From positions 1 to 36,986 of IMG/VR virus record IMGVR_UViG_3300042874_000045: a stretch of DNA of 36,986 bases; one strand, given 5' to 3'. The translations under genes and the position numbers were made by a program. Numbering within the stretch: the stretch's first letter is position 1; every line of letters starts with the position of its first letter. This document shows, one piece after another, positions 5,648-36,986 of this stretch. The stretch comes from a virus. Below the pieces are notes generated by a model, which searched no databases, was not told where the DNA came from, and was given only the letters and a program-made list of their open reading frames with translations.

Positions 5648-5676
5648 GATAGGTTAATTACAAAGTTCTAGCTATT

Positions 5677-5726: not shown

Positions 5727-5737
5727 TTGGAGTTCCC

Positions 5738-6151: not shown

Positions 6152-6165
6152 CTAATCCAAACAAT

Positions 6166-6242: not shown

Positions 6243-6266
6243 GTTAATTACAAAAAGGTAAATCCA

Positions 6267-6491: not shown

Positions 6492-6501
6492 GGAGAAAGA
6501 A

Positions 6502-6747: not shown

Positions 6748-6768
6748 TCTTCATCAAAAGGATACCTA

Positions 6769-6999: not shown

Positions 7000-7001
7000 T
7001 T

Positions 7002-8195: not shown

Positions 8196-8196
8196 C

Positions 8197-9159
8197 ATGG
8201 CTCCAGTAGAACAAGAAATTCTAATAATCTTCCCTTGTCCAACAAGGTTTGAGTTTAATGCCAAGAATCCTTGGACTGGGCGGAAAGGTTCTGCCTTACA
8301 ATTAGCTATTAGTTCTGCTAACCTACTCCGTGTTCAGGCGGAATTGGTTTATCTGAATGATAAACCTGTGGATAATAGGAATCTGTTTCTGAAAAATGGA
8401 ACACTTACTGAACTTGGTCAAACCTGTCTTGAAGGGTTAAAGGAAAAACTTAAAGGTTCAAGTAAACTAATCCTAGCCAGCGGAGCATTTCCAGCTTTAC
8501 TGTTAACAGGAAGAAAAGACCTTGCAAATATCCGTGGTTATATTCTTCCAACTATTATCCCTGGCCAAGACAATCTAGTAATTCCAACCATTGATATGGA
8601 CCAGAGGTTTATTAGCAATGATGACATTTCTATTTTATGTAAAGATTTCCAGAAAGCTTCTAGGTATAAGGAGTTTAATGTAAAAACTCTAACAAGACCG
8701 GAGAAGAAGTTAAGATACAAGTTTTCTTCTGCTGAAGAAGTTCTGGATATTCTAAACCAGCTAAGAAATGCAGATCAACTTTCAGTTGATATTGAAGTTT
8801 CTAACTTTGAAATGTCCTCTATTGGTTTCTCTGCAACCGAAGATATTGGCTATAGTATCCCTATTCAGAAATCAGTTTATAATTCCTGGACTTCTCAAGA
8901 ACTTGCAGATATTCTTCTTAGCATAGCTAAACTGTTAGAAACTCCTATGAAGAAAATTCTGCAAAATGCCATGTTTGATATTTCATTTTTACTCTTCAAA
9001 TATAACATCCACGTAAAAGGTCCGATACTTGATACTATGATCCTGCATTCTATTATGAATGTATCTCAGCCTAAGAATCTTGGATTTCTTGGATCAGTTT
9101 ACTTAGACCTTGAAGAACCTTGGAAACATCTACGGGAAACATCAAAGGAGATTAAATAA
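8197..9159 (+). CDS. DNA polymerase I-like protein, 3'-5' exonuclease half (split gene)
   Basis: 320 aa starting at the ATG behind AAAAAGGAATTAAC. Residues 1-165 resemble a degenerate uracil-DNA-glycosylase fold often found at the N-terminus of phage PolA (LILASGAFPALLLTG at 90-104). Residues about 175-320 are a DnaQ-type proofreading domain: Exo I SVDIE with Asp198 and Glu200, and Exo II QNAMFD with Asp261. The Exo III motif is not here; it appears at the start of the next gene. The stop overlaps the next ATG (TAATG), with AAAGGAG just upstream, so the second half is made by coupled reinitiation. The two products presumably assemble into one polymerase. Confidence 0.85.
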   Translation: MAPVEQEILIIFPCPTRFEFNAKNPWTGRKGSALQLAISSANLLRVQAELVYLNDKPVDNRNLFLKNGTLTELGQTCLEGLKEKLKGSSKLILASGAFPALLLTGRKDLANIRGYILPTIIPGQDNLVIPTIDMDQRFISNDDISILCKDFQKASRYKEFNVKTLTRPEKKLRYKFSSAEEVLDILNQLRNADQLSVDIEVSNFEMSSIGFSATEDIGYSIPIQKSVYNSWTSQELADILLSIAKLLETPMKKILQNAMFDISFLLFKYNIHVKGPILDTMILHSIMNVSQPKNLGFLGSVYLDLEEPWKHLRETSKEIK

Positions 9160-10691: not shown

Positions 10692-11869
10692 ATGGATATC
10701 TCGAATACACTGCCAATACTGAAAGCCCTAAGTCATATCATGTTTGGTGTGGTTTAAGTGTTCTAGCTGGTGCGTTGCAGAGAAAGATATATCTAAAATG
10801 GGGATTAGGTCGTGTTATTTATCCTAACCTCTATGTTATCCTAGTAGGCGCATCAGGAAGAACACGAAAAGGTATCGCTATTGGCATTGCTAAGGATATG
10901 TTGAAAAAACTAGGAACAGTTCCTATCTGCCCGGAATCATCATCTGGAAAACAGGCAATGATTTCAGCTATGAAAAGAAGTGTTTCTACCTTCCAAGATC
11001 CTTCTGATGATAATTTGATTAAAACCCATGTTTCTATTTCAGCATTCTCTGAGGAACTGTCCGTATTCTTAGGTGAACGGGATATTAAATACCTAGCCGC
11101 TCTAACTGATTGGTATGATTCTAAAGATTCTTGGGAGTATGAAACCATAAGTAGAGGACAAGAATATCTTACTGGTGTTTGTTTTAATTTCCTTGGTGGA
11201 ACTGCACCAGATTGGATTTCTTCTATGCTTCCACAAGAAGCAATCGGTGGTGGATTTACGTCGAGAATTATTTTTATTGTAGAAGAAAAGAAACGAAAAA
11301 CAATTGTAGAATTCAACAAATCTGAGGAAGAAAAAGAACTAGAGAAAAAGTTACTAGCAGACCTAGAACAGATTCATCAAATTTGTGGAGAGTTTACTTT
11401 TTCCCAGGAAGCAAAAGAATTATACTCTTCCTGGTATCTTGAACAGGATGAGAACTTAAGCAAAGGAAACCCAGTAATTCAAGATACTAGATTTGCTGGA
11501 TACTGTGAACGTAGAGCTACGCATGTTCAGAAGTTAGCTTTGATTATATCAGCTGCAAGAAATTCAAGCAAAGTAGTTCAGAAAGAAGATTTTCTAATAG
11601 CTCTAAACTTGTTAGAAGAAGCAGAAATAGCAATGCCAAGTACATTTGGTGGACTTGGTTTAGCTAAGAATTCTCATGTTATTGATATTCTTATTAACTA
11701 CATAAAAACACAAAGAAGAACAACAAGGAAGTTATTACTGCAAAGATTCTACCGTGATATAGATTCACAAGGATTACAGCAAGCAGAAATTCTATTCCAA
11801 CAAATGGGAGTAATCGAGATGAAGCTGCTGGAAAATGGGGATAAACTCTATACATGGAAAGGAGATTAA
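10664..11869 (+). CDS. DUF3987-type helicase/primase-like ATPase
   Basis: 401 aa. A P-loop-like segment VGASGRTRKG (61-70) matches the DUF3987 form, where RK-G/S replaces the usual GKS/T, and ISAFSEELS (125-133) is the Walker B-like acidic strand. The block LGGTAPDWISSMLP with GGGFTSRIIF downstream is typical of this family. The C-terminal 60 residues look like a winged helix. The gene begins inside the end of the polymerase gene. DUF3987 proteins are found beside phage polymerases and are presumed to act as replicative helicases, which fits here because no DnaB-like gene is present. Confidence 0.82.
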   Translation: MQRHFSNWLDGYLEYTANTESPKSYHVWCGLSVLAGALQRKIYLKWGLGRVIYPNLYVILVGASGRTRKGIAIGIAKDMLKKLGTVPICPESSSGKQAMISAMKRSVSTFQDPSDDNLIKTHVSISAFSEELSVFLGERDIKYLAALTDWYDSKDSWEYETISRGQEYLTGVCFNFLGGTAPDWISSMLPQEAIGGGFTSRIIFIVEEKKRKTIVEFNKSEEEKELEKKLLADLEQIHQICGEFTFSQEAKELYSSWYLEQDENLSKGNPVIQDTRFAGYCERRATHVQKLALIISAARNSSKVVQKEDFLIALNLLEEAEIAMPSTFGGLGLAKNSHVIDILINYIKTQRRTTRKLLLQRFYRDIDSQGLQQAEILFQQMGVIEMKLLENGDKLYTWKGD

Positions 11870-11870
11870 T

Positions 11871-12434
11871 ATGGTAATCTTTATTAAATGGATTAAAGAT
11901 ATTCTTTCCTTACTTCCTTGGAAATGGATTATTTTATTCCTAGCTATTATTCTTTCTTACTATTCCTGTTACCGTTACGGGATTCATACGGGGAAGAAAG
12001 TATTAGAGGAAAAACAGAAAGTTCTCCAAGAACGCTTACAAGAAGTCCAAGTAGAACTCAGTAAGAAACAAACCTTAGTCTCAACAGAAGTAGTTAAGGA
12101 TTATAAAGAAAAACTATCAACCTTAGGAGAAAAGTATGCAGAATTGCTGGAAAGTTCTAAAACCAATCCTCCTGTTACTTGTTCTTCTAACCGTTTCCGC
12201 GTGCTCCACGACGAAGCTAGTAATCCTCAAATATCCCAATCCACCAGCGGAATTAATGAAACCGCCCCAACCATTGAAGCAGTTACCAGAACAGTGATTG
12301 AGAATTATGCAATTTGTAATGTTAACAAACTAAGACTTGAACAACTCCAGCAATGGATCAGGGAACAGTATAAGATTCAGGAAGAAACTTGTAAAAAACC
12401 AGGAGTTCAGTGTATTACTGGATCGAATACTTAA
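11871..12434 (+). CDS. Rz: inner-membrane spanin (Rz-like)
   Basis: 187 aa, starting at the ATG behind AAAGGAGATTAAT. One N-terminal membrane segment lies at about residues 15-35 (WKWIILFLAIILSYYSC), followed by a long periplasmic coiled coil (about 40-95). RFRVLHDEAS and ENYAICNVNKLRLEQLQQWI are motifs seen in Rz proteins. It joins the inner membrane to the outer-membrane Rz1, whose gene is entirely nested in another frame at 12136-12297. Unusually, it is the last gene of the replication unit, while holin and endolysin lie on the opposite strand across the terminator. Confidence 0.88.
   Translation: MVIFIKWIKDILSLLPWKWIILFLAIILSYYSCYRYGIHTGKKVLEEKQKVLQERLQEVQVELSKKQTLVSTEVVKDYKEKLSTLGEKYAELLESSKTNPPVTCSSNRFRVLHDEASNPQISQSTSGINETAPTIEAVTRTVIENYAICNVNKLRLEQLQQWIREQYKIQEETCKKPGVQCITGSNT
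12136..12297 (+). CDS. Rz1: outer-membrane spanin lipoprotein (Rz1-like), nested in Rz
   Basis: A 53-residue frame lies wholly inside the Rz gene in a different frame. Its ATG is five bases after AGGAGA. The product has a basic start, a hydrophobic signal (ILLLLVLLTV), and a lipobox VSAC with Cys23 followed by Ser, which favours outer-membrane sorting. The mature part of about 30 residues is proline-rich (six prolines) and ends PEQ. Signal, lipobox, proline content, size and nesting are exactly those of embedded Rz1 o-spanins. It pairs with Rz to fuse the membranes at lysis and shows that the host has an outer membrane. Confidence 0.9.
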   Translation: MQNCWKVLKPILLLLVLLTVSACSTTKLVILKYPNPPAELMKPPQPLKQLPEQ

Positions 12435-12792: not shown

Positions 12793-13387
12793 AAACATGC
12801 TCCTGTTCTAGAAGTTCTTTTCCTTTCTGCATAAACTTAGCTAACTTCTCAGCGTAATGATTCTTAGCATACTCTGGTCCATTATAACCAGCAGCAAAGG
12901 AATCCCATTGACCATTTTTTAAGAATCCAAGAAGGCCAGAGGATTTTATAAAGTTAATAAACAACAAAACCTGTTCCTCAGTACTAGAATACATACGTTG
13001 AACAAAATCTTCAAGACTCTTAGCTCCAGAGGATTTCCAATTAAAACCCATGATTTGAAACATTCCCCAACTACAACTAGCTAAGGCTGCTTTTCTGTCT
13101 AAAGAACTAGCAAGATCAAGTCTAGTGTATTCCTGAATTCCACCTAGGTATAACTTACGATCCCAACGCTTTGAGGAAATGTTAGGATATTTAGTTCTAA
13201 ACTTTCCAGAAGTAAGACGATCAAAAATATGAGCCTCAAACAAAATAATAGGAACTCTTTTTTCATTTAACTTAGTATTAAAAAACCCATCATCATCAGA
13301 ACTTTCTACTGACATAACGGCATAAATATTCCCTGCCGGAATACCAAGATTGGAACTAATACTTTTTGCTACACTAATTGAACTCAT
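12770..13387 (-). CDS. endolysin, N-acetylmuramidase family
   Basis: 205 aa. The segment VMSVESSDDDGFF (24-36, with Glu28 the likely catalytic acid) and PIILFEAHIFDRL (46-58) are the core of the N-acetylmuramidase (DUF3380-type) fold. A second half with CSWGMFQIMGFNW and AAGYNGPEYAKNHY completes the domain. No signal peptide and no separate cell-wall-binding domain are visible, so export depends on the holin. The start overlaps the stop of the upstream zinc protein gene (ATGA), with AGGAG ten bases before. Cleaves peptidoglycan glycan strands. Confidence 0.9.
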   Translation of the reverse strand: MSSISVAKSISSNLGIPAGNIYAVMSVESSDDDGFFNTKLNEKRVPIILFEAHIFDRLTSGKFRTKYPNISSKRWDRKLYLGGIQEYTRLDLASSLDRKAALASCSWGMFQIMGFNWKSSGAKSLEDFVQRMYSSTEEQVLLFINFIKSSGLLGFLKNGQWDSFAAGYNGPEYAKNHYAEKLAKFMQKGKELLEQEHVYVEEIKS

Positions 13388-24400: not shown

Positions 24401-25315
24401 TTAAATACCGGGTGAACCAAACAAACCTAACGCATCAGTAATACCCGCACTAAAACGCATATAGGAAGAATGCTTCATATTCTTAGTATCAAAATCATTA
24501 TCATCTTCCAACTCCGGAGTTGTTCTCCAGAAGAAATTCAAGCCATTAGGAACATCAGTTCTAACAAACCAAGCATCAAGATCAGTAAAGAAAGGATTAC
24601 TAACAATACCCATCGGGAACAGATTCATGTCTTTAAGCACGTTGATGTTATTAGTAGTAGAATTAGACTGTAATGGAGAGTTAAGGATTCTATTAGCATT
24701 AAAGAAATTAGACGGATGGATAGCTAAACAAGTAGGCTTGAGGTTAATAAACAAACCAGTATTCTGCTGTGCTGTCATGATCTGGATAACCAGATTCTCC
24801 AAACTAGCTTCACTTAAATCTGCATCAGTCGTAAGTCGGTTGCTAAAAGTAGTTCCATTAGGATTACTATGCGTCAAAGAAATAACCGACTGTGCATCTG
24901 GTGTAGTGTAATAAGAAGTAGTAAATGCATTATTATAAATAGCAGCGCAAACAGTTTCAATAGTCTGATTCATACTATAAGCATTAGCCTTAGCTCTACG
25001 CATAGCAACTTCTGGATACTTGTTATCTACAATATCTTCCTTAGAAACAATATACCCAAGTGCATAAGCGATATGCTTATATGTAGTAACCCAACCTTGC
25101 TGGTCAGAAACATAAGTAACAGAACTAGTCTGTGGTTTCTGATAAGCTAAACCATGACCAGTAATCTGAACATCAATTTCATATGCCTTGTCAGAATTGT
25201 TTACATTAAAAAGTTTGTCAAAAATCTTATCTTGCTGTGCATATTCTTGACCCCAAACTTCACGGACACCTGGAAAAAGAAGTCTAGGATGCAGACCAGT
25301 AGTAATAACAGACAT
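24401..25315 (-). CDS. major capsid protein
   Basis: 304 aa with AAGGAGATTTGAATT before the ATG. The N-terminus FPGVREVWGQEYAQQDKIFDKLF, a beta hairpin with TSSVTYVSDQQGWVTTYKH, and the helix NAYSMNQTIETVCAAIYNNAF match phage major capsid proteins of HK97-like fold. The end DALGLFGSPG is also typical. It sits downstream of the scaffold and decoration genes and upstream of the adaptor. No N-terminal delta domain is apparent; scaffolding is a separate protein. Confidence 0.88.
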   Translation of the reverse strand: MSVITTGLHPRLLFPGVREVWGQEYAQQDKIFDKLFNVNNSDKAYEIDVQITGHGLAYQKPQTSSVTYVSDQQGWVTTYKHIAYALGYIVSKEDIVDNKYPEVAMRRAKANAYSMNQTIETVCAAIYNNAFTTSYYTTPDAQSVISLTHSNPNGTTFSNRLTTDADLSEASLENLVIQIMTAQQNTGLFINLKPTCLAIHPSNFFNANRILNSPLQSNSTTNNINVLKDMNLFPMGIVSNPFFTDLDAWFVRTDVPNGLNFFWRTTPELEDDNDFDTKNMKHSSYMRFSAGITDALGLFGSPGI

Positions 25316-26321: not shown

Positions 26322-27195
26322 TTTTAGCACTCCTATACTGTGGCGCTAAGGATTCTCTTAGCTCTGAGATAGTTTTATATTTCTTCCCAGCCCCAACAAG
26401 AACAGGGGCAAAAGAATCAATAGCTAACTGAGCTTCTTTATCAAGCATGTTAAATGTACTAACTCCAGTTCCAGAAGCTCTAGAACCTCTAGTGATAGTT
26501 TTCTGTGGCGGAATAGACTTAGTATCAGAATTTCTAGAATCTTCCTGCATCTTTCTAACTTGTTCTAAGAAAGCAAGTCCAGTTAAACCAGTTCCAGAAG
26601 CTCTAAACTTTTGTGCATCTGCAAGAAATTGTTCAGTTCTTGGAATATCTGTTCCGAACCAACTATTTTCATCATACCATTGCTTTTCAGCCAGAGAAGC
26701 AGGATCAACTTTCTTTACAGTAAACTTAGTAGGTTCTTCCGTTTCTAGAGATTTTAATTCCTCAGAAATCTCATCTAGTGATTCCTGAAGTTCCATTTCT
26801 CTTTCTGCATCCCCAGATTGTCTAGCTTCAATGATAGCTCTTTGGATATCCTTCTTAGCAAACTCTGCCGCAGTAAGTTGAGCCTCAATAAAATTTTGCT
26901 GCATTTTATTAAGAGCTTCTTGAGTCTCTCTAAGATTATCCCAAAGAAGTTCCTTTTCCATCTTCTGAACTCGGAGATCTTCTTGTAATTTCTTCTTATG
27001 TGCATTAACAATTGGAAGAATCTCTCTACCGCGAGAAACAAATTCCTCTGCAGGTTTCCAGTTTTTCTTATCACCAGAAAACTCTTCTAATGGTTTCCAA
27101 CCCATTTCTCTAGCTTCTGCTTCAAGTTCTGGATCAAGTTCTAACTCAGAACTTTCCTGATCCAGATTTTCCAACTCATTATCAGCTGGCAACAT
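26314..27195 (-). CDS. scaffolding protein
   Basis: 293 aa from the ATG (MLPADNE) six bases after AAGGAG; an upstream ATG at 27210 places that site inside the gene, so I reject it. The N-terminus is very acidic (LDPELEAEAREMGW), then a long coiled coil (about residues 65-150) and a C-terminal part ending APQYRSA with basic residues, as expected of a capsid-binding scaffold. It lies between the co-chaperonin and the decoration/capsid genes. Confidence 0.8.
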   Translation of the reverse strand: MLPADNELENLDQESSELELDPELEAEAREMGWKPLEEFSGDKKNWKPAEEFVSRGREILPIVNAHKKKLQEDLRVQKMEKELLWDNLRETQEALNKMQQNFIEAQLTAAEFAKKDIQRAIIEARQSGDAEREMELQESLDEISEELKSLETEEPTKFTVKKVDPASLAEKQWYDENSWFGTDIPRTEQFLADAQKFRASGTGLTGLAFLEQVRKMQEDSRNSDTKSIPPQKTITRGSRASGTGVSTFNMLDKEAQLAIDSFAPVLVGAGKKYKTISELRESLAPQYRSAKNG

Positions 27196-27511
27196 AACCT
27201 TCTCCTTCATTTAATAACTTAGCAAAAATATCAGTATCATTAACAATCCGATACTCTTTCCCTGTAACCGGATCTTTGGTTAAGTATCCAGAATACTTAG
27301 TCACAAGAACTTTATCTCCAACTTTTGCCCTTGGTGAATCTTCCCCGCGCCAAGCTAATGGTCCAATAGCTAAAACAACCGCAACTTGATTAACGAAAAT
27401 CTCATTCCGTTCTGCACTTTCTACTAGAATAATAGACCTATCAACTTTTTCAGGAATAAAAGACTCCAGCAAAACAGTCTTTCCAAGTGGCTTAATGTGA
27501 ATGTTAGACAT
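27182..27511 (-). CDS. GroES-like co-chaperonin (Cpn10/gp31-like)
   Basis: 109 aa behind GGAGTTAGAAA. The beta-barrel order of Cpn10 is visible: HIKPLGKTVLLES (5-17), a short mobile loop with the hydrophobic SIILV (26-30), QVAVVLAIGP (42-51), KVGDKVLVTKYSGY (63-76) and GKEYRIVNDTDIFAKL (84-99). GDKV, the Y-S-G turn and the DTDI strand are hallmark positions. It lies directly upstream of the scaffold, so it probably reprograms host GroEL to fold the capsid protein, as T4 gp31 does. The mobile loop is shorter than in GroES. Confidence 0.8.
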   Translation of the reverse strand: MSNIHIKPLGKTVLLESFIPEKVDRSIILVESAERNEIFVNQVAVVLAIGPLAWRGEDSPRAKVGDKVLVTKYSGYLTKDPVTGKEYRIVNDTDIFAKLLNEGEGYVAS

Positions 27512-27752
27512 TTTCTAACTCCTGCACTAAATCTCCCATATCTGATCTGGACTGGATTGTGCTTAGAAGTGTATCAATAACTTGAATTCCTCCCAAGATT
27601 CTATCTTGAACCTTTTCTTGTAACGGGTCATTGATAATCCGAACTAATCCCATCTCCCGTGATTCCTGAAGTTTCAGAATCAAAACTTTGGTCATTGGGT
27701 TCGAAATCCAGTCCGCGTAGATTTGATAACTCACTTGTTCCTGATCCGACAT
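27504..27752 (-). CDS. small head-region protein, 82 aa
   Basis: The ATG is nine bases after AGGAG, a convincing site located inside the end of the portal gene. The frame overlaps the last 125 bases of the portal gene and is translated in another frame. The protein is helical with DWISNPMTKVLILKLQES and QEKVQDRILGGIQVIDTLL, resembling short conserved proteins that follow podoviral portal genes. It ends 8 bases into the co-chaperonin gene. Confidence 0.7.
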   Translation of the reverse strand: MSDQEQVSYQIYADWISNPMTKVLILKLQESREMGLVRIINDPLQEKVQDRILGGIQVIDTLLSTIQSRSDMGDLVQELENV

Positions 27753-29706
27753 TATTGCTAACTCCTGTTAATTTCTGCATGCTATCCAAGCTTAGCTTGG
27801 CTTGATTATAGTCAGACTTATCTCTTTCTCTTAAAACTTCCATCTGTGCTCTAAGAGCTTCAATACTAACCTTTGCACTAGCGTGTTCAGTGCTTTTAAG
27901 TGTTTTATCAATATTAGCAAAAATTTCCTTAACGCGAGCATTAGAAAGATCAGCTTGAGCTTGTAGTTGCATTTTAAGCATATTCAGTCTAAACATCCAT
28001 TCTTGTGCATTTCCTTGGTTCTTCAAGTTCTGGACAAGTAGCTTAATATCCGGAGTTGGATTCTGTTCTGGCATACCTTCATAAATCTTATCAGGAGAAC
28101 CAATATTTAAGGATTCCAAGAAAAGAGTCTCAACTGCATCGATATTATATCCCGGAGTGCTTCTAGCGATTTGTCTTAAAATATTCAGCTTAGCAAACCT
28201 AGCAGAATCACTATCTAAGAATGGATCCGCCTGTGGAATTGCATAGTTAGAATAAGTTCTGAATAAAACATTAGAAATCTTAACATCACCAATAGATTGC
28301 TCGAACTTCAAATACTTAGCATTAAGAATGCAAAGAGCATAGAATTCTTTCTTCATAGCTTTCCAAATTCTCTTAAAGACAGCAGAATAAATCTTCTGCC
28401 CCTGGGAAAGCATAGTTCTACTTGTTTCTGCCGGTGTATTTTGTCCTGGATTTTCACCAACTGCCATATCCGTAACACCAGCGAGTCTGTTTACGTAATT
28501 AACAAGCAAAGAAAGTAAGTTAAACAAAACCACACTAGGCGAATTAACAGGAAGTGGGAAGATAGAATTCTTCAAATCCCCCATTGGAGTATCTACAATC
28601 TTCCACTCGAACGGGGCAAAGTTATAAGTCCCGCCCTTAAACTTAGCTCCCTTTCCAATAAAGCCAGAATTACTATTAGCCAAGGTCCCAGAATCAAGTA
28701 ACTGATTGATAGTTGTAGAAATACTCTCAGAAAGGGAAGAAAGAAGATCATAAAACCCAAGACCATACAAAACATTATCCGGGTGCGGGATGAACTTATA
28801 AGTCAAAAACCACTCATCAGCATTGATCTTTACAACCTTTCCAGCTAGATCAGTTGCAATATCAGCTTCTCTGCTCCATCTTGCTTGCATTCTGACAATA
28901 GTCTGAGTGCTGTATTCCCAAGTAATAATATACGGCTCCTCATATCCATCACCATCTAAATCTAACCAAGTATGCGTTTCTCTCATCTGGAGAGAAACAG
29001 AACTATCACTATACGTAGCAAAATCAGCGAAGTTTAATGTATCCGAAAATAGTCCAGACCTTACATTAGTTTCATAATCATTCCAGGATAGAAAAAAGAT
29101 CTCAGTCTTAGAATACGCTTCCTCGATTGAGGATTCCTTAGCATTAACTACAATTTTATCAATAGTTCTAAAAATACTTTCCGGTCTATCTAGATCAGAG
29201 TTCCAGATAATCTTCTTAAATGCAGTCCCTGTGATGGAAAGATACAGAATCATACGATCCATATCTTCTTCCCAGGTAGAACCGGAATCTAATAGTTGCC
29301 AAGAGAAAAATTGTTCTAAAGTATTAGTCTCCTTCAGAACTTCTGGATTAGTGAATAATCCAGGAAGCTTGAATTTAACTAACTTGCCACCATTAATTAA
29401 AGCCGGGTAAGCTGTGGCTTGAAATTGTAAAGAAGCAATACTAACAACAGGAAAGATAGTATTAGAACAATTAGTCCAAGGAAATGTCTTAGGATTAACA
29501 ACTTGTGTAGCTAGTCTAATTCCCTCTTTATGTCTATGCAAGACATTGGAATCTTTCATTGTGGAAAGATCAATCTCATAACCATTATAGATAGAGTTAC
29601 AAATACTAGATAAGTCTTGCTTATTAAATGAACTAGCAAAATTAGGACTAAAGGTAATTTCCCTTAATCCTTCTGCACCATTAATGGTATTCTGAAGCTT
29701 TAACAT
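27628..29706 (-). CDS. portal protein (P22-like)
   Basis: 692 aa. The N-terminal half contains RMILYLSITGTAFKKIIW and a WLDLDGDGYEEPYIITW strand pair. The middle has YGLGFYDLLSSLSESISTTINQLLDSGTLAN and GVTDMAVGENPGQNTPAETSRTML, characteristic of podoviral portals. The C-terminal 150 residues are a long helical barrel-like coiled coil with an acidic Ser/Asp tail. Forms the dodecameric DNA channel and docks TerL. Coupled to the upstream gene by TGATG; its last 125 bases also encode the start of another protein. Confidence 0.88.
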   Translation of the reverse strand: MLKLQNTINGAEGLREITFSPNFASSFNKQDLSSICNSIYNGYEIDLSTMKDSNVLHRHKEGIRLATQVVNPKTFPWTNCSNTIFPVVSIASLQFQATAYPALINGGKLVKFKLPGLFTNPEVLKETNTLEQFFSWQLLDSGSTWEEDMDRMILYLSITGTAFKKIIWNSDLDRPESIFRTIDKIVVNAKESSIEEAYSKTEIFFLSWNDYETNVRSGLFSDTLNFADFATYSDSSVSLQMRETHTWLDLDGDGYEEPYIITWEYSTQTIVRMQARWSREADIATDLAGKVVKINADEWFLTYKFIPHPDNVLYGLGFYDLLSSLSESISTTINQLLDSGTLANSNSGFIGKGAKFKGGTYNFAPFEWKIVDTPMGDLKNSIFPLPVNSPSVVLFNLLSLLVNYVNRLAGVTDMAVGENPGQNTPAETSRTMLSQGQKIYSAVFKRIWKAMKKEFYALCILNAKYLKFEQSIGDVKISNVLFRTYSNYAIPQADPFLDSDSARFAKLNILRQIARSTPGYNIDAVETLFLESLNIGSPDKIYEGMPEQNPTPDIKLLVQNLKNQGNAQEWMFRLNMLKMQLQAQADLSNARVKEIFANIDKTLKSTEHASAKVSIEALRAQMEVLRERDKSDYNQAKLSLDSMQKLTGVSNNVGSGTSELSNLRGLDFEPNDQSFDSETSGITGDGISSDYQ

Positions 29707-30173
29707 CAGAATCTCCTAATCGGTTCCTGTTTCCTGCTTGCATAGAATCTAGACTTAGTTCCGGGAAGGTAACGATATCTTCTATTTCTCTTTACCATAT
29801 TCCCAGTAGCTGAACTATCAGTAGCTGAACTATCAGAAACAGAACTAGAAGGACCGTCAATAATAGAAGGTGGATTATACTGATTACCAGGATTAGTAAT
29901 CATATTCAAAATCCCCTGCGATGCAGACTGGTATTGTTTACTAGTATCCAAAACCCTGTTACCAATACTTGAATTGGCAGAGTTAGAAAAATTACTAAGC
30001 AAAGGCTTATTTGGCTGACTAGAACTTTGGCTGGAACTTTGGTTGGTTTGAGAATAATTATTTTTCTTTTTCTTTCCCCCACCTAAAAGCATCCCGGCAG
30101 GCCCGAGAGAGTGGGAAAGATGTAAATTACGAACTTTCTTGTGAATCTTAAACAACTTACTAAACAGACTCAT
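29706..30173 (-). CDS. Ser/Asn-rich low-complexity protein, 155 aa
   Basis: It begins with a basic helix (SKLFKIHKKVRNLHL), a glycine turn (LGPAGMLLGGG) and a KKKKNN run, then a long Ser/Gln/Asn-rich disordered region, a duplicated SSATDSSATG, and a basic Arg/Tyr-rich tail (KRNRRYRYLPGTKSRFY). It is wedged between TerL and portal, with the portal ATG overlapping its stop. Likely a minor virion or packaging accessory protein with a nucleic-acid-binding tail. Family not recognised. Confidence 0.6.
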   Translation of the reverse strand: MSLFSKLFKIHKKVRNLHLSHSLGPAGMLLGGGKKKKNNYSQTNQSSSQSSSQPNKPLLSNFSNSANSSIGNRVLDTSKQYQSASQGILNMITNPGNQYNPPSIIDGPSSSVSDSSATDSSATGNMVKRNRRYRYLPGTKSRFYASRKQEPIRRF

Positions 30174-30174
30174 C

Positions 30175-31635
30175 TTAATACCCCGTTATGGCTGATCTTC
30201 CAGTTGACTGAAGGTAACTATATCTTGTATATTCAAATTCTTCCTCTTCTTTGGTTTGAAAATCCTCTTCAAGAACAAGAGAAACTTTTTCCATTCCCAA
30301 GAAAAGTGTAGCAGTTGAATCAAATCTATCATCTTCCTTAGCCTCACCCTTGCCAGTAAAGCTAAGAACTTCAATTCTAAATGGTTCAAACCAACTAGAA
30401 TTAGTATCATACTTCACTAATCCAGAGTTATGATATCTTTGATAAGTTCTTCCACGAACATCTTTAGACTTAACCGGAACTAAGGCCATGATTGGAAGAA
30501 TTTTATTCCGTCTAGCCATTTCTTTTCTAAGTTGTGGCTCTAAGACTAACCATATCGCACCACTTTCTACAAAGAAACATTCAATCTTAGGATAAGTTTC
30601 TGCAATATCAAAAAACGCATCCAGAACCTGAAAAGAATCCATTCTATCTGCAAGGTTATCCTCAATAAAAACACCATCCTCTGTAGTTAAAGAACCAATT
30701 GTGAATGAAGTTTTATTAGCCTGATTCTTAGTCGAAGCAGCAAAATCTACGCCGACAAAATATTTTCTCTTAAGATTAAAATCCTTATCTTCAATAGGCT
30801 TAAACTTCTCAGGATCAAGATATCTATCACCAGAATCAAGTGGTGTATTTAAATATTCCTGTGAATAAACTGAAGAAAGTCCACGGGATTCAAAATCTTT
30901 TTGTAAACTTCTTAAATCTTCCTCTGTCCATCTTCCAGGCCAGAGCAAATTAGAAAAATCAGAATAACTTTTGTGTGCCTTATAAAACAAACCATTCCAA
31001 CTTGGAGACCTTAGAAAGTTTGCAAGCAAAGAATCCTCATGCAAAATAGTTCCATGAACCCGGATTCTACCATTCTTAGCCAAAGCAGGCATTACGGCAC
31101 TGGAGAAATTCTTTGCAAATGTAATTCTTCTCTCAATACTAGCAACTTGCTCATCATCTTCCATGTCATCACAGATAATAAGATCAGGTCTAGTATTATT
31201 CCATAAAGCACCTCGAATTTTCTGCTCCGCACCCATTGCGGTTAGTTTGAAAGTAAAACCAGACTTTTTCCTTACAATAATCTCTGTTTTCTGCTCTACT
31301 TCAAACTCTGCTAGGTCAAATTCTTTCCATAAAATCTCGCCTGGTTGCAGGAAGTTGGTAATATTAGAAAGAAGTTCCTTTGCCTTGGATTCTACAGAGC
31401 TAATAATAATCCCATATCTAGCATCTTCAAACAAGAATGAAGCTAATGGATAAGCGATAGAAAAAGCAGTAGTTTTAGCATGATTTCTTGGTGCGGCACA
31501 AGCTACTTGTTTCAGGTCTGAGGTGTATTTTTTCCAAACTTCCTTATGAAACCCCGGAACTGGAGAAGGAGTATCGTAGTTGGAAGATAAAAACAACCCT
31601 GAAAAAGCTTCTAACAAATCCTCGTTTAACTTCAT
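30175..31635 (-). CDS. terL: terminase large subunit
   Basis: 486 aa behind AGGTGGATTAGT. ATPase: a Walker A-like PRNHAKTTA (49-57, Lys54), Walker B LIICDDMED (152-160), and a coupling motif VHGTI (193-197). Nuclease: YFVGVDFAAS with Asp297, FFVESGAIW, and a late DDRFD acidic cluster. Length and order are those of headful or P22/BPP-1-type large terminases. Pumps DNA into the procapsid through the portal and cuts it. The HAKTT form of Walker A is a known TerL variant. Confidence 0.92.
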   Translation of the reverse strand: MKLNEDLLEAFSGLFLSSNYDTPSPVPGFHKEVWKKYTSDLKQVACAAPRNHAKTTAFSIAYPLASFLFEDARYGIIISSVESKAKELLSNITNFLQPGEILWKEFDLAEFEVEQKTEIIVRKKSGFTFKLTAMGAEQKIRGALWNNTRPDLIICDDMEDDEQVASIERRITFAKNFSSAVMPALAKNGRIRVHGTILHEDSLLANFLRSPSWNGLFYKAHKSYSDFSNLLWPGRWTEEDLRSLQKDFESRGLSSVYSQEYLNTPLDSGDRYLDPEKFKPIEDKDFNLKRKYFVGVDFAASTKNQANKTSFTIGSLTTEDGVFIEDNLADRMDSFQVLDAFFDIAETYPKIECFFVESGAIWLVLEPQLRKEMARRNKILPIMALVPVKSKDVRGRTYQRYHNSGLVKYDTNSSWFEPFRIEVLSFTGKGEAKEDDRFDSTATLFLGMEKVSLVLEEDFQTKEEEEFEYTRYSYLQSTGRSAITGY

Positions 31636-31648
31636 ACTAATCCACCTG

Positions 31649-31987
31649 CTAACTTATGGTAGAACCAGTAAAAACTGCAAGCCTAGACACAATTGCATAA
31701 AGATTATTCAATGTAGTTCTGATTCCAGTAGTTACTTCATATACAACCCCCGGAGTCCCACCAGTTAGAGTAACTGAAACAAAGCCATTAGTAGGACTGT
31801 TAATAACTGGAGTTCCTACTACAGTTAACGTTGGAGTAGTTTCTGCACCAGAAGCTACTGAAATAACAACATCCACTGTTCCACCGGATTCTCCAGGAAC
31901 TAAGGAAGAAGAAAATGGAATAGTATACGTAATAATTTCACTTGGAATCTTAGCTGGAAGATCAAACTTTAACATACTAAGTCCCAT
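31649..31987 (-). CDS. small Ig-like beta virion protein, 112 aa
   Basis: Starts in the stop of the upstream adhesin-like gene (TAATG). Residues 10-90 are beta strands with alternating Thr/Val and a TLTGGTPGVVYEVTTG stretch, like Ig-like or fibronectin-like domains that decorate phage tails. The last 20 residues are a helix (TTLNNLYAIVSRLAVF). Probably a fibre component or fibre chaperone. There is a second Met at codon 5 with no better site. Confidence 0.6.
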   Translation of the reverse strand: MGLSMLKFDLPAKIPSEIITYTIPFSSSLVPGESGGTVDVVISVASGAETTPTLTVVGTPVINSPTNGFVSVTLTGGTPGVVYEVTTGIRTTLNNLYAIVSRLAVFTGSTIS

Positions 31988-32445
31988 TAAGAGAAGTTCT
32001 TGTTCAGATTTACTAGAAAATTAACTCCACCGGTTAGTGTAGTTAGTTCTAGCAAATCAACAGCATTAGCAGTTGTAGAAACTGATCCAACTACACCATT
32101 TGGCCAATCAAATAAAGCAGGCCAAGATACTGTTCTGACTGTAGTGTCTTGTTTAATTTGAATCTGTATCTTCAGACCAGCAGGAACGTTAGTAAAAGTC
32201 CAGCTAGTAACATTCTCAGTAAGCTGTAAAGTATAAAAGTTTCCCAGAGAACAATCTACAGTAACAGTTCCAGCACTACTTGAAATAGTAGTAACAGTTC
32301 CACCAATAGTTCTTTCTAGTAATTTCCATAACAAAGAACCTGTGATCTTAAAACTATCACCAACATTATCTTGAAGTTCAAAAACAGCATTTGCATCCGC
32401 AGTAGTAGCAACTAAAGGTAATGCACTAATAGTTACGTCCGTCAT
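31987..32445 (-). CDS. tail-fibre adhesin-like protein, 152 aa
   Basis: The C-terminal 110 residues follow a beta pattern common to podoviral fibre tips: AGTVTVDCSLGNFYTLQLTEN, WTFTNVPAGLKIQIQIKQD, VSWPALFDWPNG, and DLLELTTLTGG. The N-terminus (TISALPLVATT) resembles a short phage fibre docking segment. It overlaps the preceding 419-aa gene by 20 bases. Likely attached to the tail and involved in host contact. Confidence 0.65.
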   Translation of the reverse strand: MTDVTISALPLVATTADANAVFELQDNVGDSFKITGSLLWKLLERTIGGTVTTISSSAGTVTVDCSLGNFYTLQLTENVTSWTFTNVPAGLKIQIQIKQDTTVRTVSWPALFDWPNGVVGSVSTTANAVDLLELTTLTGGVNFLVNLNKNFS

Positions 32446-33685
32446 ATTCCTGATCCTCTAAGATTCTTCTTGAACCATTTCCAGTAACTCTTGTTGCTCC
32501 CGTAGAGGTTATCCGAACAATTGGAATACCTTGTGGATAATCCTGTAAACCTACTGCTAGCTGGATTCTGTTTTTGTTAGAAAATCCAAGCTGCAAACAT
32601 TCTCCAGTTGCAACTAATGGATCAACTGCTGTTTGTGAACCTTGCAATTCATGCAAGGTCATTTTAGCATTAAGATAATTGATAAAAAATCCAGGTTTGA
32701 ACTTAAAATAAAAAGTACTAACAGCACTTCCTAGATTAGTTCCATTAACTGTAAGAGTAAAAGCTCCACCAGCAGACCGGGAAATGGTTACGTTAAATAG
32801 TGAATTAAGTGGAAAACTTCCCGGAATAGCATAAGAAACAGTCTCATAAGCAACCCCAAGAGTATATCTAGTTAATGACCAATTAAAGCTGCTTTGCGAG
32901 AAGAATAATCCATTAAATCCTTCATCTGCCGGCAGAAAGAAACCGATATGCGTATCATTAGTGCTGAGACTAATATCCAAATCCCAAGCAGAACCTGTAG
33001 CGAAATATCCCCATTTATCCCAACTTACAAGATCAGAACTTCCAACTGTGTTTAGGATAGAAAAATCAGAATTAACTGAATCATATTGAAAACTAGGACT
33101 TCCACTTATGGTATGATAATCAATAGAAAGTGGCTCAGTTATAAAGTCTTCAATCAAAGTTCCAGCAAAAGCAGGATTTCGTTCAATGGTAAATCTATCT
33201 GATTGATCCCTATAATAAAGAACTCCAGCCTTAGTGTAAAATAGAACAATACTACTCTGAGCAATGTTCCAGTATTTAGTTTTATCCAGAAAAATCTGTG
33301 GTCTGTGTGAATCAGTTCCAAAACTAAGTAAACTATACCCAGGAATAGTTGTATCAAACCAATAGAGTTTTGCTATATTATCCTGCTCAAAACTTAACGC
33401 CCATGTTCCATTTTGATCAAAAGAAAGTGAGACATTAATAATATTTAGCCCAGAATAGATAAGAGTTTCTGGATAACTAGCTGAACTTAGATAGACATAA
33501 CTATTTCCATTGAGTGTTCTGAATAAATTAACTCTCCAGATTTGATATTCCAAACCTTGACTTGGATCATTTAGTGCAACTGGACCAAGAGACTCAGAGA
33601 AAAGTTGAACAGGATCTTTATTCCTTGGATCAAGTAACTGACCAAGCACAGGCTCGCTGGAGAATTGATAATTAGGTAAGCTCAT
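32426..33685 (-). CDS. tail-fibre or appendage protein, 419 aa
   Basis: Starts over the stop of the upstream gene (ATGA). Almost entirely beta. Residues 80-190 contain repeated strands with FDQNGTWALSFEQDN and KLYWFD, like propeller-type fibre proteins. Residues 205-345 look like a lectin/laminin-G-type sandwich (a WDLDISLSTND strand and a GGAFTLTVNGTNLG turn). The C-terminus is short and basic. Probably a host-surface-binding appendage. Exact fold unverified. Confidence 0.6.
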   Translation of the reverse strand: MSLPNYQFSSEPVLGQLLDPRNKDPVQLFSESLGPVALNDPSQGLEYQIWRVNLFRTLNGNSYVYLSSASYPETLIYSGLNIINVSLSFDQNGTWALSFEQDNIAKLYWFDTTIPGYSLLSFGTDSHRPQIFLDKTKYWNIAQSSIVLFYTKAGVLYYRDQSDRFTIERNPAFAGTLIEDFITEPLSIDYHTISGSPSFQYDSVNSDFSILNTVGSSDLVSWDKWGYFATGSAWDLDISLSTNDTHIGFFLPADEGFNGLFFSQSSFNWSLTRYTLGVAYETVSYAIPGSFPLNSLFNVTISRSAGGAFTLTVNGTNLGSAVSTFYFKFKPGFFINYLNAKMTLHELQGSQTAVDPLVATGECLQLGFSNKNRIQLAVGLQDYPQGIPIVRITSTGATRVTGNGSRRILEDQEYDGRNY

Positions 33686-34581
33686 GGATATCTATTCCAA
33701 GTTACCTGGAATTGGATGGAAAGAGTATTTGTTGTATTTTTAGGGATATTGGCAGCAAATAAAATCCCAAAAACTCCCCAGCCTAAGGGTAAACGAATGA
33801 GATTAAAAGCTGATCCAGCGCCGGATCCAAAGTTTATATTACCAATTTGAGAATATGTTCCATTAGTATAAGTATTTGCAGTTATTGCAGAACTAGTTTG
33901 GGTAGAAGTTCCTGTTATATTTCCTCCCGCAGTTGCAGGGAGGGAGCCGGAAGAGTAAGAATTTGCTGTATAGAAATTATCTCTAATAATAGTCACACTA
34001 TTAAAAGTAAACCAATTAGTGGAAGAAAATTCAATAGCTCTAATCGTATAGTTATATGGAATAGCCGCTAGTGTTAAGGTTCCGGTAGAATCTGTTAATG
34101 TATAATAGTTTCTAAACGAATAAGTAAGCACCAGAGATTCTGTGGATAAAACTGTAATAGTAGTAGGATTACCACTGGCATCTTTGATTAAAGCATGGGT
34201 AAGTAGTGTAGTATTATCATAAGCACTAATAACACCTACTTCTGCTAAAACTCCCGTTGCATGGCCTATGTTGAAGGTGTATTTATATAGAACTTCCCCA
34301 TAAGGTGGACTGGCTGAAGGATACCCGGTTGTACTAATCACAGTGGTAGAGTCACTTAAACTACCTGCAGGTGCTGTTAAAGAAGTATCAGTAATTGCCG
34401 GAGGGGTATTTCCGGTTCCTACCCTAGCCCTTGTGTTATCTAGAGTTTTAGTGGCCACAAAATCCAACCCACCATTAACTATCAGATTAGGAATCCAGTC
34501 AGTTTCTTCCTTAATAGTCCCATCAGAGTTCTTAACAGTAAGCTTAAACTTACCGACTAAGCCAAAGTTTAGACCTAACAT
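33682..34581 (-). CDS. tail-fibre/virion beta protein, 299 aa
   Basis: ATG behind TTGAGGTATTT. The N-terminus (GKFKLTVKNSDGTIKEETDW, then NLIVNGGLDF and RVGTGNTPPA) is a known opening of phage tail-appendage proteins. The rest is Thr/Ser/Gly-rich beta structure with a low-complexity ITGTSTQTSSAITANTYTNG. Likely part of the fibre complex with the neighbouring genes. No catalytic residues seen. Confidence 0.62.
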   Translation of the reverse strand: MLGLNFGLVGKFKLTVKNSDGTIKEETDWIPNLIVNGGLDFVATKTLDNTRARVGTGNTPPAITDTSLTAPAGSLSDSTTVISTTGYPSASPPYGEVLYKYTFNIGHATGVLAEVGVISAYDNTTLLTHALIKDASGNPTTITVLSTESLVLTYSFRNYYTLTDSTGTLTLAAIPYNYTIRAIEFSSTNWFTFNSVTIIRDNFYTANSYSSGSLPATAGGNITGTSTQTSSAITANTYTNGTYSQIGNINFGSGAGSAFNLIRLPLGWGVFGILFAANIPKNTTNTLSIQFQVTWNRYP

Positions 34582-34592
34582 AAATACCTCAA

Positions 34593-35303
34593 TTAAGCCA
34601 ATGTTCCAGAAACAAGAGTCACACCTGTTAGCTTGAAGAAATCCTCTGGATACTGTGTAAACTGAATTACAACAGTTGTCAGAGAACCTGAGACTAGATT
34701 AACTTGAGTAATGGTATAGAAATCTTCTGGATACTGGGTGAAAGTTTTGATTATAGAATCCAAAGAACCACTTGGCAGAGTTATTCCGGTAAGCTTAAAG
34801 AAATCCTCAGGGAATTGAGTAAACGTCTGAACTACATCTCTCAGTTCACCAGAAGTAAGTGTTAGTGTAGTTAGTTCAAAGAAACCGGTTGGAACTTCTA
34901 AGAAATCTCCATCAAGATTATTAACAGAAACCAGTCTAAAATCAGCTTCATCAAAGATAGGATAAATCTGACTAGTGAAATAAGTAGCAAGAAGTGGTGG
35001 ATTGAATTGGGTTCCCGGAACTATTAGAAGTAGTTTAGTTTCTTCAATCTCATTTCCGAGAGAAGTAACCGCAGAGAGTTGGAACTGGTAAACTTTTCCC
35101 GGAATTCCTTTCTGAACTCTTTGCCAGACTGTTTTACCATCTTCTGAGATAATGGTAGTGCCTAATAAAACTTTTTCTGAATCACCAGTTCCTATTTTAA
35201 CTGAACCATCTACGGTTGCTGTTCTGATTATCTCACTTGGAAGAAGTTTAGGCTTAAACTGGAATTCTAACCGGTAAACTTCTGCTGGAGTTTTTGGAAT
35301 CAT
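34593..35303 (-). CDS. appendage protein with 27-residue tandem repeats, 236 aa
   Basis: ATG behind GGAGATAAA. The N-terminal 95 residues are an Ig-like/beta part with VDGSVKIGTGDSEKVLLGTTI and GIPGKVYQFQLSAVTSLG, resembling the domain seen in phage baseplate or fibre proteins. Residues 141-236 are three full copies and one partial copy of a repeat centred on LTGITLPSGSL and FTQYPEDF. Probably elongates an appendage by repeat number. First of the fibre cluster; a tract of GGTTAAA-like DNA repeats lies just upstream. Confidence 0.65.
   Translation of the reverse strand: MIPKTPAEVYRLEFQFKPKLLPSEIIRTATVDGSVKIGTGDSEKVLLGTTIISEDGKTVWQRVQKGIPGKVYQFQLSAVTSLGNEIEETKLLLIVPGTQFNPPLLATYFTSQIYPIFDEADFRLVSVNNLDGDFLEVPTGFFELTTLTLTSGELRDVVQTFTQFPEDFFKLTGITLPSGSLDSIIKTFTQYPEDFYTITQVNLVSGSLTTVVIQFTQYPEDFFKLTGVTLVSGTLA
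34596..34883 (-). repeat. 81-bp coding tandem repeats (3.5 copies)
   Basis: The end of the 236-aa gene encodes 27-residue units at residues 141-167, 168-194 and 195-221, plus a 15-residue partial unit at 222-236. Each unit starts FF or FY, contains SG-x-L, and ends FTQ(F/Y)PED. DNA copies are diverged, so the repeat is old rather than a fresh duplication. Confidence 0.85.
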
Positions 35304-35324
35304 TTTATCTCCAGTTCAGTCTTT

Positions 35325-35356
35325 GGTTAAAGGTAAGGTTAGCGGTTAAAGGTTAA
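35325..35356 (+). repeat. GGTTAAA-like tandem repeats in the intergenic gap
   Basis: Reading the plus strand: GGTTAAA, GGTAA, GGTTAGC, GGTTAAA, GGTTAA in tandem, in the gap between the 49-aa basic protein gene and the 236-aa fibre gene. These match the 7-mer family at 36844-36906 (GGTTAAC on the minus strand) in opposite orientation. Possible protein-binding or regulatory array for the fibre genes. Confidence 0.6.
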
Positions 35357-35502
35357 TACTTAATATTTACCTTAGGAAGTTTCTTTCCCTGAGCCAAATT
35401 TTGCTGAAGCCTCATATTTCCTGTATTAGGCCCAGAGGTTTTCTGGTTGTTTTTATTATTCTCACCCTTACTCATCTTGCTCATCTTGCTGGACTTCTTC
35501 AT
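35353..35502 (-). CDS. small basic protein, 49 aa
   Basis: The ATG is nine bases after AAGGAG and lies inside the end of the TerS-like gene in another frame. The product is highly basic, rich in Lys, Asn and Ser (KKSSKMSKMSKGENNKNNQK), then SGPNTGNMRLQQNLAQGKKLP. Such small basic proteins often sit beside terminase genes. A longer version of the frame (from 35706) is just antisense-free overlap of the TerS-like gene and has no ribosome binding site. Function unknown, possibly nucleic-acid binding. Confidence 0.6.
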   Translation of the reverse strand: MKKSSKMSKMSKGENNKNNQKTSGPNTGNMRLQQNLAQGKKLPKVNIKY

Positions 35503-36109
35503 GTTCCAGAACTCCTTGAGTTTGTTGAAAGTATTTATTACGAACAGAAATAATCCTATCTGCCAAACTTTTAAGATTATCCTCAGAACTAATGGAGTTA
35601 TTTTGAACATTAACTGAAACAGAAACACCAGTGTTCTGAGAAAGTTTCCTAGTAGCTTCCATCTGAAGCCTAGCAGCAGAAAGGCGAATCTTTGGATCAT
35701 CACCATTTAGAGAATCTTCAATAGCTTGGACACTTTTGATGAATAAAGTTTCTAGCTTAAGAGAAGTTCCTTCTAGGTATTTAGAAATCTCAGCTTGGAC
35801 TAATGGTTGTCTGGAAAGCATGGAAACATAGACCGGATGAACTCCGAGTGCTGCGGCTATGTCTTTGTGTTTCATATTTTGTAAAAGTAACTGGATTACT
35901 CTATAATGAAGTGGTCTTAGTTTTTTAAGAAGCCAAGGTTTCTTTTCTTTTTGTTCTTGTTCTTTGTAACTAGTTTCCTTATAACCATGTTCCAGTGCCA
36001 AGAGTTCAATGGATGAATTACTTTGATTAATTTCCTCTAAGTCCAGATCAAGGTCACTGGATTCTTGGGTTTGAATTTGAAGTTCTTTCAATTCTTTCAT
36101 TGAATTCAT
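35468..36109 (-). CDS. terminase small subunit-like protein
   Basis: 213 aa behind AAAGGAATTACT. After an acidic N-terminus of about 60 residues there is an HTH at about 65-100 (HYRVIQLLLQNMKHKDIAAALGVHPVYVSMLS), followed by a helical oligomerisation region (YLEGTSLKLETLFIKSVQAIEDSL and IRLSAARLQMEA) and an acidic Gln-rich tail. This layout matches phage TerS proteins that recognise the packaging site. It is separated from TerL by six appendage and small genes, which is unusual. An alternative is a general HTH regulator. Confidence 0.7.
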   Translation of the reverse strand: MNSMKELKELQIQTQESSDLDLDLEEINQSNSSIELLALEHGYKETSYKEQEQKEKKPWLLKKLRPLHYRVIQLLLQNMKHKDIAAALGVHPVYVSMLSRQPLVQAEISKYLEGTSLKLETLFIKSVQAIEDSLNGDDPKIRLSAARLQMEATRKLSQNTGVSVSVNVQNNSISSEDNLKSLADRIISVRNKYFQQTQGVLEHEEVQQDEQDE

Positions 36110-36147
36110 AGTAATTCCTTTCTCTTGGCTGAGGCTTGAGATATTAC

Positions 36148-36381
36148 TTATTCCTGATCAATTGCATCTAGTAAATCTTGTGGTCTGTTCTTTAATCGTT
36201 CTGCAAGAGAACGTTTTCTTGCGGGGATTGTAATAGTATCTGCATTTGTGTTTCTATTAGTCACTTGGGTTTTGTTCTTAGAATTCCCAGGACTAGAATT
36301 TGCTGAGTTATTTTTCTTGTCAGCAGCAGCTTTCTTCTTGCTAGAATCTTCATTACCATAAAAGAGTCCAAGAATATCCAT
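36148..36381 (-). CDS. low-complexity basic protein, 77 aa
   Basis: ATG behind GTGGAGAACTAAG. A run of Lys, Asn and Ser (residues 13-45) is probably disordered, followed by PARKRSLAERLKNRPQDLLDAID, a basic helix that could bind nucleic acid or a partner. It lies upstream of the TerS-like gene. Family not recognised; position suggests a packaging accessory. Confidence 0.55.
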   Translation of the reverse strand: MDILGLFYGNEDSSKKKAAADKKNNSANSSPGNSKNKTQVTNRNTNADTITIPARKRSLAERLKNRPQDLLDAIDQE

Positions 36382-36382
36382 C

Positions 36383-36490
36383 TTAGTTCTCCACTGGGAT
36401 TAGTTTAACAGGAAAGGTTCTCAAGAACTCAAGTTGAGCTTGAGAGAGTAAACGAAAACAAGGTAAGGAACTGGATTTGTTTTGTAACAT
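36383..36490 (-). CDS. small protein, 35 aa
   Basis: A short frame between two annotated genes, with AGGAGAATACC before the ATG and a stop two bases before the next gene. The product is mildly hydrophobic, with CFRLLSQAQLEFLRTFPVKL, possibly an amphipathic helix. The good ribosome binding site and tight packing support it, but the size leaves doubt. Confidence 0.5.
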   Translation of the reverse strand: MLQNKSSSLPCFRLLSQAQLEFLRTFPVKLIPVEN

Positions 36491-36506
36491 GGTATTCTCC
36501 TGGTTA

Positions 36507-36770
36507 TTAATCTTCACCTTCTGCTAGGTGAGGCTTTAACACACGGGCTTTTAATACTTCAATTGCACCTAAGGTTGCTATGATTTTATCTGTTCTATGC
36601 AAGACTACATAGTCTTGTAAAGAGGAACTGTAAAATATCCCAACTCCCCGTGTCAGGGTTCCTTCTTTTGCTTGCTTAAGAAGTTCTTCTAAGGCTGAGA
36701 TTAAGAATTTATTCGGACCGCCACACTTTAGAACTTTTACAGTAGAGTCTGGTGTTTCTTTTCTACCCAT
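36507..36770 (-). CDS. first gene of the leftward unit, 87 aa
   Basis: A mixed alpha/beta protein with FLISALEELLKQAKEG, YVVLHRTDKIIATLGAIEVL and a basic end. The ATG has no good Shine-Dalgarno close by (only GCCCTGAA), so it may be translated from a leaderless-like or weak start, or the start may differ. It is the first gene read leftwards from the control region. Family not recognised. Confidence 0.6.
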   Translation of the reverse strand: MGRKETPDSTVKVLKCGGPNKFLISALEELLKQAKEGTLTRGVGIFYSSSLQDYVVLHRTDKIIATLGAIEVLKARVLKPHLAEGED

Positions 36771-36843
36771 TTCAGGGCTGGATGTTCTGGGATCTTTGTG
36801 TATTCTTTCTTTCCTTTTTAACTAGTTGCTGGAACCTTTAACT

Positions 36844-36906
36844 GGTAACCCTGAACCCTGAACCGTTAACCGTTAACCGTTAACCGTTAACCGTTAACCG
36901 TTAACC
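36844..36906 (+). repeat. 7-bp GTTAACC tandem array (iteron-like)
   Basis: Six perfect head-to-tail GTTAACC copies (36865-36906) preceded by two CTGAACC copies (36851-36864) and one GGTAACC. GTTAAC is palindromic, so the array reads similarly on both strands. It lies in the divergent intergenic region. A 7-bp period is not a helical turn multiple, so it may be a melting element or protein-coated array. Confidence 0.85.
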
Positions 36907-36970
36907 TGAGACAAAACTCCGCTGACCAATAGCTTAGCAGAACTGAAAGGGCAAGACAAGAAGGAAAACT

Positions 36971-36986
36971 ATGGCTACCTTGACCG
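36971..36986 (+). CDS. start of a small frame running off the window end
   Basis: ATG follows AAGGAAAACT. Five codons and one base are visible before the end. If the window is circular, the frame continues to a stop at 54-56, giving a proline-rich 23-residue peptide. Too short to be sure; its main value is as support that the ends join. Confidence 0.3.

Follow-up and report, generated by a model that had tools for sequence, protein, structure and literature searches.

A tandem GTTAACC array in a divergent spacer of an uncultured phage contig: candidate binding sites in a putative early control or origin region

The window analysed here, a stretch of 36,986 bp that constitutes an entire IMG/VR phage record classed as linear, carries near its right end a non-coding array of about nine to ten contiguous 7-bp units based on GTTAACC, located in the spacer between two divergent open reading frames (ORFs). 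Short tandem arrays of other sequences are over-represented in the matching region of related phages. The array quite possibly consists of tandem sites, particular to this lineage, at which a phage DNA-binding protein would bind within a candidate early control or origin region, and this is the explanation that we favour among those considered below.

Six perfect copies of GTTAACC are arranged head to tail and are preceded on their left by one GGTAACC unit (36844-36850, one mismatch) and two CTGAACC units (36851-36857 and 36858-36864, with two mismatches each relative to GTTAACC). This composition agrees with the six perfect and three diverged copies at 36844-36906 reported in the initial annotation, and the periodicity extends further left to 36833, where TRF delimited an array of 10.6 copies with a score of 99, the highest of the 27 rows for the window (Table 1). 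None of 200 dinucleotide-preserving shuffles of the window matched it (highest TRF score of 84), and the longest period-7 identity run was 39 bp in the array versus 13 bp in the 200 dinucleotide shuffles. In a sliding scan of 6-mer repeats, the segment starting at 36681 contained the most direct-repeat pairs of the window. The GTTAAC within each unit is a palindrome, as previously pointed out, and three units span 21 bp, which corresponds to about two helical turns. In contrast, the proposal that the units are AT-centred and favour melting does not hold for the array, whose A+T content in 30-bp windows is 50-60% versus 63% for the whole window. The TTAA in each unit, together with the 7-bp period, generates stop codons in all six frames, and the array can therefore persist only between genes. 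It presents several near-identical direct repeats in non-coding DNA, as in iteron origins, as well as the at least four contiguous 7-bp repeats of the heptad operators bound by ribbon-helix-helix (RHH) proteins. A literature search over titles and abstract openings, covering few subscription journals, retrieved no description of this array, or of the dyad element of this phage group presented below, among the matches listed.

Table 1. Coordinates of the array, its surroundings and other features of the window.
Feature	Position	Strand	Basis or remark
Period-7 tandem array	36833-36906	+	degenerate part 36833-36864, perfect part 36865-36906; sequence, TRF, shuffles
Divergent spacer holding the array, 201 bp	36771-36971		sequence, ORF list
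Leftward ORF, 87 aa, start at 36770	36507-36770	-	no family match; not picked by the simple gene caller
Rightward frame, ATG at 36972 preceded by AAGGA	36972-36986	+	sequence; frame cut by the contig end
T-rich stretch left of the array	36791-36830	+	73% A+T in 30-bp windows
Large terminase	30175-31635	-	named by its matches
Terminase small subunit (terS), anchor for the comparison with relatives	35468-36109	-	PHROG 2538, E 0.00021; matches in relatives
Second, degenerate TTAACC-type heptad cluster	35325-35357	-	about 21 bp upstream of the leftward ORF 34593-35303
Third cluster, TTTTAAC x3.6	5174-5197	+	just upstream of the SSB-like ORF 5210-5647
Small early protein, RHH-like by eye, candidate binder	1207-1527	+	model and family searches without support
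HTH protein, candidate binder	5738-6151	+	PHROG transcriptional regulator, E 0.00028; Pfam HTH_3, E 0.018, below cut-off
ParB_N-domain protein, candidate binder	7002-8195	+	family search

The location of the array at a divergence point, also proposed in the initial annotation, is supported by the starts of the two flanking frames and fits the gene order of the relatives. Only 5 codons (15 bases) of the rightward frame lie within the window, the contig ending 80 bp beyond the array. The T-rich stretch to the left of the array is the only candidate melting stretch of the spacer, and no A-tract was found in the sequence of 36771-36986. A hairpin or dyad in this spacer was considered and rejected, as its fold was no better than that of shuffles (z of +0.22 and +0.39) and the hairpin ranked 395 of 920. 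In the 80 bp to the right of the array, the best match to a promoter-like site was 7 of 12, which was equalled or beaten by 94% of controls, although this comparison is unfair to the window because the controls measured 180 bp.

A search with the large terminase retrieved 64 loci, the best of them 49% identical. The terminases of 55 loci (L016-L070) are 33-49% identical, and 54 of these loci, with L064 as the exception, contain further window genes in matching order; in L071-L079, the terminase alone matches (22-28% identity). Scans of viral contigs with the 87-aa ORF and the small terminase, in which the records nearest to the window may be excluded, returned no closer relatives. Likewise, megablast of window positions 27000-36986 against named phages gave no match, and neither did phmmer with eight window ORFs (one of them mis-framed) against the ORFs of the relatives. 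The contigs of 14 relatives were rebuilt from stretches, and six of them (G005, G012, G013, G016, G017, and G027) display exact end overlaps of 97-127 bp, as in circular assemblies. Based on the detected matches, the gene order of these six agrees with that of the window when the latter is closed into a circle, apart from minor exceptions among tail-fibre-like genes.

The two ends of the window were also compared, and neither an end overlap nor an end repeat was found. In the nine contigs in which it could be measured (G002, G004, G005, G011, G012, G013, G016, G017, and G027), the distance from the terS match to the PD-(D/E)XK nuclease match is 7.0-11.9 kb, while joining the ends of the window would give about 4.7 kb. 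Therefore, several kb of early genes past the right end are probably missing from the window, which is probably a fragment, and the element found in the relatives may sit beyond this end. Like the window, the contigs G001, G024, L022, and L030 stop at their arrays or dyads or no more than about 250 bp away from them. Hairpins or copy-number variation may have broken the assembly, or the genome may end there.

In 7 of 13 relatives, TRF detected an array of period 6-13 in the matching region of 2.2 kb, which, counted from the low end of the terS match, runs from 0.5 to 2.7 kb. Judged by the other windows of these contigs, 0.2 would be expected; the remaining six relatives have no TRF array there. 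As the period-11 hit in G010 is itself the A-rich core and G004 is closely related to G009 by sequence, the seven amount to about five independent cases. This count omits G024, which has no small-terminase match, and the anchor of G010 was estimated from a neighbouring gene. The sequences of these arrays differ from GTTAACC. By inspection, they lie mostly within a larger element, in which short repeats in a T/G-rich arm are followed by a core and then by an inverted arm rich in A/C, the whole forming a large imperfect inverted repeat. The core is mostly an A-tract, with GA repeats in G024 and an AT-rich stretch beside the dyad in G002.

The predicted single-strand hairpin of this element, corrected for GC, outranks all others in its contig in 8 of the 12 relatives with an assigned place (G003 and G010 had none) and ranks 2, 3, 7, and 25 in the others, although in G017 and G027 the best-ranked window also takes in the preceding terminator. 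These ranks contain some circularity, as the expected places were drawn from repeat scans and sequences and the element positions used for the promoter-like sites and the GC skew were set by eye. The DNA-fold z of the element ranges from -1.6 to -9.8 in all 12, and in 6 of 12 relatives a promoter-like site beyond it has a control fraction no higher than 0.04. In G003, G010, G016, and G017, the element is not among the five top repeat windows of the sliding scan. The GC-skew check proposed in the initial annotation gave a divided answer in the relatives: in 5 of 10 contigs the minimum lies no more than 2 kb from the element, but it is 4.6-4.9 kb away in four and 9.4 kb away in one. The maximum lies within 1 kb of the convergence point in all ten, four of these contigs being linear, with wrap-around assumed. 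As gene strand coincides with replichore, GC skew cannot separate replication from transcription. The dyad element of the relatives looks origin- or control-like.

Among named phages, the circular OP947158, whose polymerase is 33% identical, presents three repeats of 17 bp and, after them, an A-tract of 17 bases, at about 2 kb from its terS gene. These repeats are one of 11 TRF rows in that genome, and the ten further rows elsewhere count against taking OP947158 as support. MW202796 has a 23-bp repeat (2.4 copies) at its divergent region, and no repeat was found near the divergent region of MW202489.

A second conserved non-coding element of about 60 bp, with TGCCTTTA-like and TTTGCCCCC-like parts, was observed in the strand-switch region of the relatives (7535-7596 in G004, 13001-13064 in G013, 1749-1809 in G011, in oriented contigs, and in seven other contigs). 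It is a candidate packaging site or promoter and sits nearer to the terminase than the dyad element. The model built from these 10 contigs also matches G001 (17.0 bits) and G003 (15.8 bits), neither of which was used to build it; it was not found in the window, where the best score was 4.8 bits.

Regarding the correspondence with the relatives (e.g. G011, G012, G013, G027, and G009) and OP947158, the window shares the location, with the terminase side on one flank and the early genes on the other, and the presence of non-coding short repeats, and its short-period array lies likewise 0.5-2.7 kb from the terS match. In contrast, its units are of 7 bp, versus mostly 8-9 bp in the relatives with arrays and 17 bp in OP947158, and the dyad with its mostly A-tract core is a feature of the relatives that the window spacer lacks: neither an inverted second arm nor an A-tract core was found in the window, although the element could lie beyond the contig end. 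In the relatives with arrays, the rightward gene that usually comes before the element is small. Overall, the strand switch and the element are separated by a called rightward gene in 9 of 13 relatives (in a tenth, G013, by eye), and in the window the array precedes the first rightward ATG, as in G002; the positional match is therefore approximate. Thus, the array may be the version of this element proper to its lineage, or it may be a separate feature of the strand-switch spacer, the true element being located off the contig. The earlier claim that this is a typical place for an origin or master control site stands in part: the arrays in the region of 7 of 13 relatives support it, and its more specific grounds are weakened by the lack of a dyad, of an A-tract, of an outstanding promoter-like site in the 80 bp to the right, and of a raised A+T content in the array.

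The heptad itself is not conserved, an adjacent GTTAACC pair being absent from all 64 terminase-found loci; absence in relatives, named in the initial annotation as part of what would refute its reading, is thus observed for the sequence, whereas arrays as such do recur in the matching region. Among 153 loci, the pair occurs only in L001-L015, that is, in the window itself (L001-L004) and in eleven IMG/VR stretches fetched by this pattern (L005-L015), in which the window proteins have no match. None of the arrays in these 11 stretches lies inside a called gene; those of L007, L010, L011, and L014 start within about 6 bp of the end of a called gene, and that of L009 abuts a ribosome-binding site. 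This test used a simple gene caller and covers about six independent phages, with the two arrays of L007 tested as one range. In one of them, an unrelated tailed phage (L012, 4403-4457, and L013, 6385-6439, also L005 and L006), GTTAACC heptads occur in both orientations beside an ACTGTC-type array, and in L013 they lie about 280 bp upstream of an ORF read by eye as terminase-like.

The rightward block of the window (157-12434) encodes, among others, an ATP-dependent ligase, a PD-(D/E)XK nuclease, a Sak4-like ATPase, a family A DNA polymerase, a primase/helicase-like DUF3987 protein, the ParB_N protein, and an SSB-like protein with a weak match (E 0.0036). No named replication initiator was found among the proteins recovered (polymerase, primase/helicase-like, ligase, SSB-like, and ParB_N) on this probably incomplete contig, and there was no ParA match among the ORFs scanned, which form part of the ORF set of the window. 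For the product of 1207-1527, an RHH domain was sought in Pfam without a match, the best match among PDB sequences was unrelated (E 0.44), and the single-sequence model, all-helical with a mean pLDDT of 65.8, was too poor for use. The DNA polymerase of the window is split into an exonuclease ORF (8077-9159) and a polymerase ORF (9159-10691), and OP947158 has a single polymerase gene of 2481 bp at the corresponding place in the gene order. A tRNA-Leu(taa) (1954-2039) and a tRNA-Arg(tct) (6166-6242) are located amid the rightward genes. The putative major capsid protein (24401-25315) gave one weak match of 36 residues against genome contigs, in a Falkowbacteria MAG.

We favour tandem dimer sites because of the palindromic GTTAAC, the 21 bp covered by three units, and the precedent of the pSM19035 ParB protein (PMC9499535). 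The array is the top tandem array of the window, non-coding and placed between divergent ORFs, and short arrays recur in the matching region of 7 of 13 relatives, in agreement with such sites; the absence of dyad and A-tract, the lack of conservation of the heptad, the A+T content below that of the genome, and the six relatives without an array count against them. The binder would be a replication initiator or an early regulator acting on a control region that precedes the rightward early genes, with one dimer per palindromic heptad and cooperative loading along the array. Once loaded, the array might open the flanking T-rich DNA and start replication, or it might set the activity of divergent promoters. 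The putative origin role derives from the location and from the appearance of the element in the relatives. With less confidence, a broader scenario could be envisaged, in which this phage group keeps an origin or early-control element in a fixed place while the repeat sequence turns over wholly between lineages, GTTAACC being a reduced or rebuilt version. In this element, short iteron-like units would form inverted arms on either side of a core that is mostly A-rich, with an early promoter next to it, and the initiator and its repeat would co-evolve.

Other explanations would account for part of these observations. The array could be a purely transcriptional operator or a centromere-like site for an early protein of RHH or XRE type, comparable to the omega heptads and devoid of any replication role, which we consider unlikely. 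In pSM19035, one RHH dimer does occupy a 7-bp repeat like the contiguous ones seen here (PMC9499535), and candidate regulators are encoded at 1207-1527 (by eye) and 5738-6151, but the RHH assignment of the former is unsupported by the model and searches described above and the consensus is unlike WATCACW. Under this reading, the smaller clusters of TTAACC-type heptads found upstream of two other genes (35325-35357 and 5174-5197) would serve as additional operators; nevertheless, their closeness to start codons would also be compatible with leader sequence. A neutral spacer repeat grown by slippage is similarly doubtful. The perfect copies at one end and degenerate copies at the other suggest a recent expansion, and the absence of the heptad pair from the terminase-found loci is consistent with it, as are the pattern-found arrays that avoid called genes, four of them starting near gene ends and one abutting a ribosome-binding site. 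However, slippage leaves unexplained the recurrence of arrays of other sequences in the matching region of the relatives, and it is because of this excess that we do not prefer it.

A repeat flanking a physical genome end or packaging site, as with the 7-bp arrays of T7, appears improbable. The contig does stop shortly past the array, similar stops are seen in G001, G024, L022, and L030, and the small terminase gene is close. In contrast, the window, probably an incomplete contig, shows no end repeat, the element is internal in the six relatives with end overlaps, and the other conserved element, the candidate packaging site, lies nearer to the terminase in the relatives.

Should the array, as well as the dyads seen in its relatives, prove to be origins, a large uncultured phage group would gain a predicted origin and would offer a natural series of repeats that keep their position but not their sequence. 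If, on the other hand, the array were only a spacer repeat, it would be a caution against calling origins from short tandem arrays alone.

Regarding known systems, the short-repeat arrays of T7 also have 7-bp units and adjoin its terminal repeat. They resemble the window array in their period and in the closeness of the contig end, although their sequence differs from GTTAACC and no end repeat was found in the window, whose right end is probably incomplete. In RepA_N replicons, the origin iterons are repeats with inverted halves around a poly-A tract, and in the PLE satellite of phage ICP1 one such repeat is the iteron and non-coding repeats act as origin (PMC7145576); these semi-palindromes are centred on a poly-A tract that the window array lacks. 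In pSM19035, the sites of the RHH protein ParB (omega) consist of 7-10 consecutive 7-bp repeats overlapping promoter regions, one repeat being the site of one RHH dimer and at least four contiguous units being needed for full activity (PMC9499535). The pSM19035 consensus is WATCACW, a non-palindromic sequence from which GTTAACC departs, and its partner is an RHH protein, whereas the 1207-1527 product of the window is RHH-like by eye only. Nevertheless, the parS/operator heptads of pSM19035 and the window array are both contiguous 7-bp repeats located beside gene starts.
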